64,000 nt of DNA from Psychroflexus salis (lineage in GTDB: Bacteria > Bacteroidota > Bacteroidia > Flavobacteriales > Flavobacteriaceae), in NCBI RefSeq assembly GCF_014640175.1, contig NZ_BMGL01000007.1:1-64000 (forward strand), in the 5' to 3' direction. Numbering within the stretch: position 1 is the stretch's first letter; the number at the start of each line of letters is the position of its first letter. A program made the translations under genes and the position numbers. The notes beneath the pieces are model-generated. The model saw nothing but the letters and a program-made list of their open reading frames with translations, was not told the origin of the DNA and did no database searches. Below, piece after piece: positions 59,126 to 60,795 of the stretch.

Positions 59126-59836
59126 TTAAACTTGCGTCTCTACTTTAGTTTGCATACAATTCAATAATTCATTAAAATTCGAAATCACAAAATAATCTTC
59201 TTGCATAATGTCGGTTCGAAATACTTTCTGAAAAACTTCAGCTTCATTAAAAACTAAAAAATTGGCCTTGCCCTCATCAATTTGGTTGGTTTCTCCATAA
59301 GAAGATAAAATTCCAGCACCGTAGGATTTAATTTTTCCTTTTTCTTGAATTACACCAAATTCTATAGTAAACCAATACAACCGCTGTAATTCTAAAAGTT
59401 TCTCTTTATCGTGAATATGAGCTAAACCTAACTTTCCAAATTTGTGAACAAAATTTGAAAAAACCGGTTGACTCAAAAGCGGGATATGTCCAAAAATATC
59501 ATGAAACATATCGGGCTCTTCTAAATAATCTAAGCTGTTTTTATCGCGCAACCAAGTCGAAGAACAAAACTTTTTTTCGGCTAACAACCTAAAAAAATCT
59601 TCCACTTCAATCAATCCAGGAACGACTTCAATTTGCCAGCCAGTAGTATTTTCAAAAAAGGCATTCAATTTGTTGAAATCAGGAATTTCGTCTGCATTCA
59701 AAACCGGTTCCATTTCATTTAAAGCTTTTAAATATAAGCTTGAAGCTTTATTCGGAATGTTTTTTACTTGGCGCTCAAAGAGTGTTTTCCAAACCCATAA
59801 ATCTTCTGTGGTGTAGTTGTTCATTTCTTGTTGCAT
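59126..59836 (-). CDS. phhA: Phenylalanine 4-monooxygenase
   Basis: 236 residues, catalytic domain only, as in bacterial monomeric enzymes. It hydroxylates phenylalanine to tyrosine with tetrahydropterin and O2. The iron facial triad is visible: His in EPDMFHDIFGHIPLLSQP (about 102-119, both histidines) and Glu in RLYWFTIEFGVI (about 149-160). GAGILSSYGE (about 170-179) is the conserved pterin-side loop. An in-frame ATG five codons in (59824) is an alternative start. The preceding 130 bp on this strand form a tyrosine leader-peptide attenuator (separate entries), which implies the enzyme is used to make tyrosine and is switched on when Tyr-tRNA is scarce. Confidence 0.95.
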   Translation of the reverse strand: MQQEMNNYTTEDLWVWKTLFERQVKNIPNKASSLYLKALNEMEPVLNADEIPDFNKLNAFFENTTGWQIEVVPGLIEVEDFFRLLAEKKFCSSTWLRDKNSLDYLEEPDMFHDIFGHIPLLSQPVFSNFVHKFGKLGLAHIHDKEKLLELQRLYWFTIEFGVIQEKGKIKSYGAGILSSYGETNQIDEGKANFLVFNEAEVFQKVFRTDIMQEDYFVISNFNELLNCMQTKVETQV

Positions 59837-59853
59837 AAGGCTTTAAAATAAAA

Positions 59854-59881
59854 AATCCCGACTCTAAGTAGAATCGGGATT
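59854..59881 (-). terminator. Intrinsic terminator of the phhA attenuator
   Basis: 12-bp stem (one G-U pair), loop ACTT (59866-59869), then TTTTATTTT on the minus strand to 59845. It ends 9 nt before the phhA ATG, so it would stop transcription before the structural gene. Confidence 0.9.
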
Positions 59882-59902
59882 AAGTTTATAATTTACATAC
59901 AA

Positions 59903-59965
59903 CTATTCCATTCTACTTATTTCGGCAGATTGATAATAGTAATATGTTTTGTTATTTTTTTTCAT
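59903..59965 (-). CDS. phhA leader peptide with four consecutive tyrosines
   Basis: 20 codons plus TAG: MKKNNKTYYYYQSAEISRME. The Tyr codons are TAT TAC TAT TAT. The start ATG follows the -7 box by 7 nt, so the transcript is probably leaderless or nearly so, which is common in Bacteroidota. The A-rich first codons fit their initiation style. Segment 2 of the antiterminator occupies codons 16-19. Too short to be reported by most gene finders. Confidence 0.85.
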   Translation of the reverse strand: MKKNNKTYYYYQSAEISRME

Positions 59966-59980
59966 TTCGGTTCAAAAGTA

Positions 59981-60324
59981 TATTTTATTTCAACTCACTA
60001 AAATAAATTGTTGAATTGATTTTAATTTTTAACAAATGTCGATGCTTAATTCGTGGCGCATGTTCTTCAAAAACCGACTAATTTTAGTTTTTGGAGTTTC
60101 ACTTATAAGGGAGGGATATTTTTATTTTGTTTCAAGTTCGAGCGGAGTCGAGATGTGGATGGTTCTCGACTCCGCTCGATACTAAAACAAAAAAGACAAT
60201 TGATTAAATAGCATCGGCGGTGCACTTCTACAAGAAATGGTTATCGAGAACTGCGTTTTTGTGTTCCGTATTTCTTGATAATGCTCCAAGGCTTGACTTA
60301 CAAAGAATTAGCAACATATTTGCT
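59981..60324. repeat. Gene-free region with a perfect 16-bp dispersed hairpin
   Basis: The arms TCGAGCGGAGTCGAGA (60138-60153) and its exact complement (60164-60179) around a 10-nt loop form the best-preserved copy of the hairpin family found near recQ. From 60200 to 60290 the plus strand has an open stretch whose conceptual translation has no start codon in a sensible place and no family I recognise. A TTATCGAGAA / TTCTTGATAA near-palindrome is also here. Nothing else is supported. Confidence 0.75.
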
Positions 60325-60795
60325 TTACGGCAATAAAACTTTATCTATTACATGAATTACACCATTGCACTGATTTACATCTGCAATAGTCACAGTCGCT
60401 ACATTACCCGCTGCATCTTTAATTTTTACGGCATTACCGTCTAACATCAAAGTTAAAGTTCCGCCTTGTACGGTTTTGATTTGAGCTTTTCCATTTCCTT
60501 TTTTTATAGCAGCTACAACATCTTTAGTTTTATAATCGCCAGCAATGATATGGTAAGTTAATACCACTTGAAGTTTAGCTTTGTTTTTTGGTTTTGGTAA
60601 ACTTTCTAAAGTTCCTTTAGGTAAAGCATCAAAAGCTTTATTTATGGGTGCAAAAACAGTAAAAGGACCATCACTAGATAAAGTTTCAACTAAATCTGCC
60701 GCCTTTACCGCTGCAACTAAGGTAGTGTGATCTTTTGAGTTTACTGCGTTTTCAACAATTTTTTTAGTAGGATACATTTCAGCTACACCAATCAT
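60325..60795 (-). CDS. Fasciclin-domain protein that has lost its signal peptide
   Basis: 156 residues from the first usable ATG (60795). One fasciclin (FAS1) domain is complete: TVFAPINKAFDALPKGTLES (about 44-63), VVLTYHIIAGDYKTKDVVAA (about 72-91) and the terminal NGVIHVIDKVLLP (about 144-156). FAS1 proteins are secreted adhesion domains, but this frame begins without an export signal. The missing signal peptide is present just upstream in the same frame, broken by one TAA (next entry). As it stands the product would be cytosolic and probably non-functional, or the base is a sequencing error. Confidence 0.85.
   Translation of the reverse strand: MIGVAEMYPTKKIVENAVNSKDHTTLVAAVKAADLVETLSSDGPFTVFAPINKAFDALPKGTLESLPKPKNKAKLQVVLTYHIIAGDYKTKDVVAAIKKGNGKAQIKTVQGGTLTLMLDGNAVKIKDAAGNVATVTIADVNQCNGVIHVIDKVLLP

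Follow-up and report, generated by a model that had tools for sequence, protein, structure and literature searches.

In E. coli-type attenuators the antiterminator and the terminator share an arm, as they are predicted to do in the leader described here, and a comparative survey of attenuators from 2004 reportedly covered His, Trp, branched-chain amino acids, Thr and Phe. The phhA gene of Pseudomonas, which belongs to the same enzyme family as the gene analysed here, depends on the activator protein PhhR and is put to catabolic use. The E. coli-type systems (trpL, pheL, pheST) resemble the present locus in a short leader ORF, in codons for the product amino acid and in the control by charged tRNA that is proposed here, as the relevant sections of PMC11802643 describe, but they sense Phe or Trp, whereas the phhA leader points to tyrosine and its target is a hydroxylase making Tyr from Phe. 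The aroR leader of Corynebacterium glutamicum (Phe-Tyr-Phe, before the aroF operon) likewise combines an aromatic peptide containing a Tyr codon with read-through upon stalling; however, Phe limitation is its trigger, tyrosine availability is without effect, the phylum is another and the target is DAHP synthase (PMC11802643, sections on aroR). Similarly, the uORFC-13-1 motif before Acholeplasma aroF has been proposed as an aromatic-codon leader ORF followed by a terminator and an aromatic gene, but it carries Phe codons, precedes DAHP synthase and, in the account given of that motif, is confined to Acholeplasma and environmental sequences (PMC8632094). In the same family as the present organism, leader-peptide attenuation, the same proposed mechanism class, has been inferred before amino acid biosynthesis operons of Flavobacterium psychrophilum (PMC9723704, main text, in which a term search finds neither 'tyrosine' nor 'hydroxylase'). 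Within Psychroflexus itself, the leader of the PDT-tyrA operon (MLNKVYFWNYFYFAFSSETGEF in the own genome) has the same architecture, but it mixes Phe and Tyr codons and its operon serves both amino acids. The initial annotation of this locus knew of no account of a tyrosine attenuator on phhA, and none was found among the matches listed in full-text literature (open-licence papers). The mechanism class is classical, while the tyrosine specificity and the phhA target would appear to be new relative to the literature searched.

The locus lies on contig C7 of the 2.87 Mb genome of Psychroflexus salis, in a stretch of 64,000 nt analysed as a whole (the window). Its features, in the order of transcription, are as follows.

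59973–59980, minus strand: -7 box TACTTTTG of a predicted sigma-A promoter (consensus TAnnTTTG; from the sequence and relatives)
~59968, minus strand: predicted +1, giving a 5' UTR of ~3 nt ahead of the leader ATG
59903–59965, minus strand: leader peptide ORF of 20 codons, MKKNNKTYYYYQSAEISRME followed by a stop (from the sequence; the same layout recurs at distinct phhA loci, counted below)
59933–59944, minus strand: Tyr control codons TAT TAC TAT TAT, consecutive (from the sequence; synonymous TAT/TAC variation among loci)
59910–59919, minus strand: putative antiterminator segment TAAGTAGAAT within the leader ORF (from the sequence, pairing with the terminator arm and spacing)
59870–59881, minus strand: terminator 5' arm AATCCCGATTCT, common to the antiterminator (from the sequence and pairing in relatives)
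59866–59869, minus strand: terminator loop ACTT, in the antiterminator pairing too (from the sequence)
59854–59865, minus strand: terminator 3' arm AGAGTCGGGATT (hairpin of -16.5 kcal/mol)
59845–59853, minus strand: U-tract TTTTATTTT (TTTT-A-TTTT; from the sequence)
59126–59836, minus strand: phhA, encoding a phenylalanine 4-hydroxylase-type biopterin-dependent hydroxylase of 236 aa (PF00351, 152.3 bits)

The observation is confirmed at its coordinates. The 20-codon ORF with four consecutive Tyr codons lies where the initial annotation had placed it, and the exact complementarity claimed between the ORF and the terminator (arm plus loop) is present, TAAGTAGAAT (59919–59910) being the perfect complement of ATTCTACTTA (59874–59865) and starting at the 14th nt past the last Tyr codon. 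The 12-bp hairpin (one of its pairs is G-U) and its U-tract also stand as described, but the distance from the end of the U-tract (59845) to the phhA ATG (59836) is 8 nt and not the 9 nt given. As a side observation, a strong inverted repeat (TCGAGCGGAGTCGAG ... CTCGACTCCGCTCGA) occupies 60138–60180 of the window, between the leader and a gene at 60325–60795; it is possibly the terminator of that gene or a repeat element.

With a probability of roughly 0.87, phhA would be controlled here by ribosome-mediated transcription attenuation in response to charged tRNA-Tyr, a reading supported by anatomy, conservation, covarying complementarity, spacing and predicted energetics. We infer a course of events in which transcription would begin adjoining the leader AUG, and a ribosome would load nearly at the 5' end and trail RNA polymerase through the leader. 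When Tyr-tRNA is ample, the ribosome would run on to the stop codon and mask the 3'-terminal segment of the ORF; the terminator would then form and the transcript end before phhA. When it is scarce, the ribosome would stall in the Tyr run, ~14 nt upstream of the segment, and the freed segment could capture the emerging 5' arm of the terminator; RNA polymerase would then read through, and PhhA would convert Phe to Tyr. Left untranslated, this leader would fold on itself and the terminator would form.

The distribution of the layout was assessed at phhA loci from the genomes of 60 relatives together with the best 80 of at least 564 loci confirmed on contigs of named genomes. Removal of 11 loci identical to another across the last 160 nt reduced 100 strong-match loci to 89 distinct ones; L059 was without upstream sequence, leaving 88 assessable (L055 with just 173 nt upstream). 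A leader was called, by a rule set after the first listings had been inspected, where a terminator scoring at least 20 separated phhA from a short ORF that had at least two Tyr in five residues and whose stop lay no more than 170 nt from the gene. By this rule, a Tyr ORF and a terminator precede phhA at 66 of the 89 distinct loci, 61 of these 66 having at least three Tyr in five residues; the layout is missing from the other 23 (22 lacking a qualifying ORF, terminator or distance, and L059). Near-identical loci (L048/L053) were kept among the 66, the resulting redundancy being addressed by repeating the pairing test on 29 loci that each have a different arm. In the genus, this PhhA is present in 17 of 27 genomes (own included) and the leader in 16 of those 17; the exception is a Psychroflexus MAG (L036), in which the hairpin is weak and the neighbourhood of phhA lacks a Tyr ORF. 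Conservation of the Tyr codons and of the complementarity in relatives was the comparison which the initial annotation had proposed, and both recur in several families despite nucleotide change, with 23/89 loci lacking the layout; on this comparison the proposal was not refuted.

Among the named loci, 59 of the best 80 of at least 564 carry the leader as defined above. It precedes phhA in 8/9 loci from Psychroflexus, 10/10 from Crocinitomicaceae and Crocinitomix, 4/5 from Fluviicola, 19/28 from records labelled only Flavobacteriales, 1/3 from Flavobacterium, 2/3 from Saprospiraceae and in the single loci from Chitinophagales (1/1) and Lewinella (1/1), and it was found neither in the one locus from Cryomorphaceae (0/1) nor in those from Balneolaceae (0/5). 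Many of the named phhA records are MAGs, and the labels Actinomyces, Glaciecola and Halobacteriovoraceae fit poorly to the PhhA of their records. A record named Glaciecola amylolytica (L077) and a Fluviicola record have almost the same Tyr leader before phhA (MHISTYYYAFLNPGTE vs MHISTYYYQFLNPGTE), through either mislabelling or a transfer.

Further afield, ten longer hydroxylases (L021–L030; open frames of 568–623 aa, save L023, which is interrupted by a stop) show no ORF with at least four Tyr/Phe in six residues in the 300 nt that precede their first ATG. A sample of the phylum contained PhhA at E <= 1e-30 in 68 of 392 genomes, and a Tyr leader in 6 of these 68: three already known (L001, L006, L012) and three whose Tyr ORF was newly seen among the other 65 loci (L140, L148, L153). 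The Tyr ORF test was negative at 59 of those 65, and three more (L196, L197, L201) could not be placed; the gene start is uncertain for many distant loci of this sample because the query spans the core only. Two of the 59, from genomes of the same class (L150, L152), have by eye ORFs in which Tyr and His are both abundant (MNPTPRTYVHHSYHFLQ, MNQTYHSYSHYHTSFWG), with terminator-like hairpins after them. Upstream of phhA-like genes at L158 and L162, two leader ORFs that resemble each other but have no run of Tyr (...KCFCLNIRP..., ...KCFDLTINRP...) are followed by a terminator, to an arm of which the segment GGAGTYGGGCTG is complementary.

Tyrosine makes up 22.3% of the post-start residues in the 66 leaders. 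Their Tyr codons comprise 203 TAT and 50 TAC in 33 patterns; therefore, it is the amino acid that is kept and not the nucleotides. Tyr runs are concentrated at phhA: at the 80 named loci (250 nt each), 53 ATG-started short ORFs with a Tyr run occur in 19,673 nt upstream of the gene (2.69 per kb), compared with 16 in 962,467 nt elsewhere at the same loci on both strands (0.017 per kb). A scan of the own genome for runs of four Tyr codons (TAY4) gave 24 placements, three of which overlap at one place, hence 22 sites; the phhA leader is the only placement inside an ATG-started short ORF of 10–40 codons, with one other lying within an 81-codon ATG ORF and one within a 7-codon ORF. A translated ORF and a real terminator would also be expected if the peptide were a nascent-chain arrest peptide, or sensed something other than Tyr-tRNA, and the dense and variable Tyr run (YYHYY, YYCYY, FYYYQ) could be accommodated by such a reading. 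Arrest peptides, however, usually require defined residues, and on visual comparison the rest of the peptide differs widely between families while the Tyr run itself tolerates interruptions; moreover, the product of the phhA enzyme, Tyr, matches the run. An arrest peptide or another signal is therefore considered very unlikely.

The pairing between the ORF end and the terminator was evaluated by duplex folding, against the terminator 5' arm and loop, of the region that begins at the last Tyr codon and extends 12 nt beyond the stop. Across the 66 loci, whose terminator hairpins have a median of -16.6 kcal/mol, own pairs averaged -11.49 kcal/mol vs -8.72 kcal/mol for cross pairs, and the own-pair mean was reached in 0 of 20,000 permutations; when each distinct arm was represented by a single locus (n = 29), the means were -11.30 (own) and -8.37 (cross), with 0 of 100,000 permutations. 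What this statistic captures is a displaced average: in only 7 of the 29 distinct-arm loci was the own terminator the best partner, and in 11 it was among the top three, the low count of best partners arising because many arms have a CCCGRTTC-like consensus. When single loci were compared with 100 letter shuffles each, no more than 5 shuffles matched the pairing at 48 of the 66, and 18 were not distinct at that level; in the P. salis leader the pairing amounts to -11.7 kcal/mol and was reached by 1 of 100. Both pairing partners have changed together at, for example, L041, L043, L047, L095 and L109, and L069 is unpaired by score, with a 7-nt match seen by eye that lies partly outside the allowed window of the test. 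The distance from the last Tyr codon to the first paired base is 11–17 nt at 56 of the 66 loci (7 and 8 nt at two, 19–21 nt at eight), a spacing which fits approximately with where the front edge of a Tyr-stalled ribosome would leave the segment free.

The two ribosome states were modelled by folding nascent RNA with a ribosome footprint that extended 11 nt past the A-site codon. Averaged over the 66 loci, the terminator arm was predicted to be held upstream with a probability of 0.70 when the ribosome is stalled at Tyr and of 0.15 when it is at the stop codon, the difference exceeding 0.2 at 62 of the 66; at 7 of the 66, the arm was still held with a probability above 0.3 at the stop codon. 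The corresponding predictions for the P. salis leader were 0.67 (stalled) and 0.01 (stop codon). Without a ribosome, the predicted value was 0.07 for this leader, because it folds on itself in the manner of a protector hairpin that would bring about termination in untranslated RNA, but 0.32 on average over the 66 loci. The states expected from the initial annotation, in which a stalled ribosome frees the segment to block the terminator and one at the stop covers it, are thus those returned by the folding, and prediction and comparison agree on an antiterminator that excludes the terminator, is covered by the terminating ribosome and is free when the ribosome stalls.

Once the whole hairpin has been made, the terminator is favoured on average in every ribosome state (predicted means 0.92–0.95, and 0.92–0.94 for stalled ribosomes); in the P. 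salis leader with a stalled ribosome, its probability is 0.58 (stall at the first Tyr codon) and 0.94. The antitermination decision must therefore be kinetic. The same prediction for the completed RNA would suit a hairpin that is a plain terminator or stability element, with the Tyr ORF providing constant coupling and no tyrosine regulation. Nevertheless, conserved Tyr codons, complementarity and spacing are all needless for a simple terminator, and such an element accordingly appears quite improbable.

The predicted promoter bears on how the leader would be read. A TAnnTTTG box, placed at -12 to -5 in the promoter description of PMC9723704, has its end no more than 25 nt ahead of the leader start at 49 of the 66 loci; among 132 control windows of comparable length taken farther upstream, one contained such a box. 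Relative to the predicted start, the first ATG is at -1 to 7 nt in 44 of the 49 boxed loci, coinciding exactly with it in 14, and the others comprise four with the first ATG at 11–17 nt and one without an ATG; since the choice of the first ATG biases to short distances, the near-leaderless start is a prediction. The leader ORF is probably nearly leaderless, and in this predicted start distance, as in its Bacteroidota-type promoter, the phhA leader is unlike the E. coli-type attenuators. According to the passages of PMC9723704 on transcript and translation starts, leaderless mRNAs account for 5.5% in F. psychrophilum and translation starts in this phylum use signals other than Shine-Dalgarno. 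The latter point, together with a U-tract immediately after the stem, speaks against the hairpin governing the translation start of phhA instead of its transcription, which would otherwise draw on the stem ending within about 11–42 nt of the phhA start at most of the 66 loci; control of this kind is held to be extremely unlikely. A T-box or metabolite riboswitch can be dismissed as a negligible prospect, given that Rfam 15 (T-box included) yielded no match at gathering score in the window and 14 relatives' loci and that the leader measures ~120 nt from its predicted start to the U-tract, half of it ORF.

The physiological setting was examined through the encoded enzymes. The best NCBIfam match of PhhA is TIGR01267 (phenylalanine 4-monooxygenase) with 249.7 bits, slightly below the cut-off of 264.75, and by such matches PhhA is a biopterin-dependent aromatic hydroxylase closest to phenylalanine 4-monooxygenase. 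The own genome also encodes a pterin dehydratase, TyrA, PDT and the Tyr-degrading HPPD; two Tyr routes and one Tyr breakdown step are therefore encoded, and the presence of HPPD means that PhhA may serve catabolism too. In the same genome (L139:1914-2031, contig C16), the mixed aromatic leader introduced above and a terminator precede a PDT-aminotransferase-tyrA-DAHP synthase/chorismate mutase operon, and Phe/Tyr/Trp-dense ORFs (e.g. MTTRFYFYFNFYFADPAKRG) lie upstream of the PDT-tyrA operon at 18/18 loci of the genus and 4/6 from the rest of the order.

Seven of the 20 genomes carrying this PhhA (E < 1e-50, own included) gave no match to the PDH_N profile (G003, G016, G019, G020, G022, G049, G059). 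Five of them (G003, G016, G019, G020, G022) belong to the same genus, are 99–100% complete, have chorismate synthase and the Tyr leader, and gave no PDT match either. G049 is without the leader; G059 has both the leader and PDT, is 83% complete, and chorismate synthase was not found in it. In a further genome of the genus (G018), no match for PDT, TyrA or this PhhA was obtained. Elsewhere, phhA follows trpB-trpA-DAHP synthase in L093 (confirmed by profiles) and, judged on length and N-terminus, in L084 and L107, and a DAHP synthase-like gene stands ahead of it in L079 on the same grounds; none of these four has a Tyr leader before phhA. The genus genomes without PDT and PDH_N and the position of phhA beside trp and DAHP synthase genes fit a biosynthetic PhhA, a role we infer from gene content. 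On the basis of mutant fitness in Dyella and in the Bacteroidota member Echinicola vietnamensis, GapMind (PMC7311316) has proposed that this enzyme acts in biosynthesis; Legionella is cited there as well.

On a broader scale, we lean, at somewhat better than even odds, towards a widespread Bacteroidota attenuator class which would sense tyrosine via a leaderless leader peptide and mark a biosynthetic PhhA clade; in the Psychroflexus lineage without recognisable prephenate dehydratase or dehydrogenase, it would govern the only Tyr source found, which like the animal route would start from phenylalanine, here imported. If phhA is indeed switched on at low tyrosine, the leader would predict from sequence which PhhA proteins are biosynthetic. 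Ribosome-mediated attenuation would furthermore gain tyrosine as one of its amino acids, sensed through a leader peptide whose 5' UTR is all but absent, in bacteria not reliant on Shine-Dalgarno sites.
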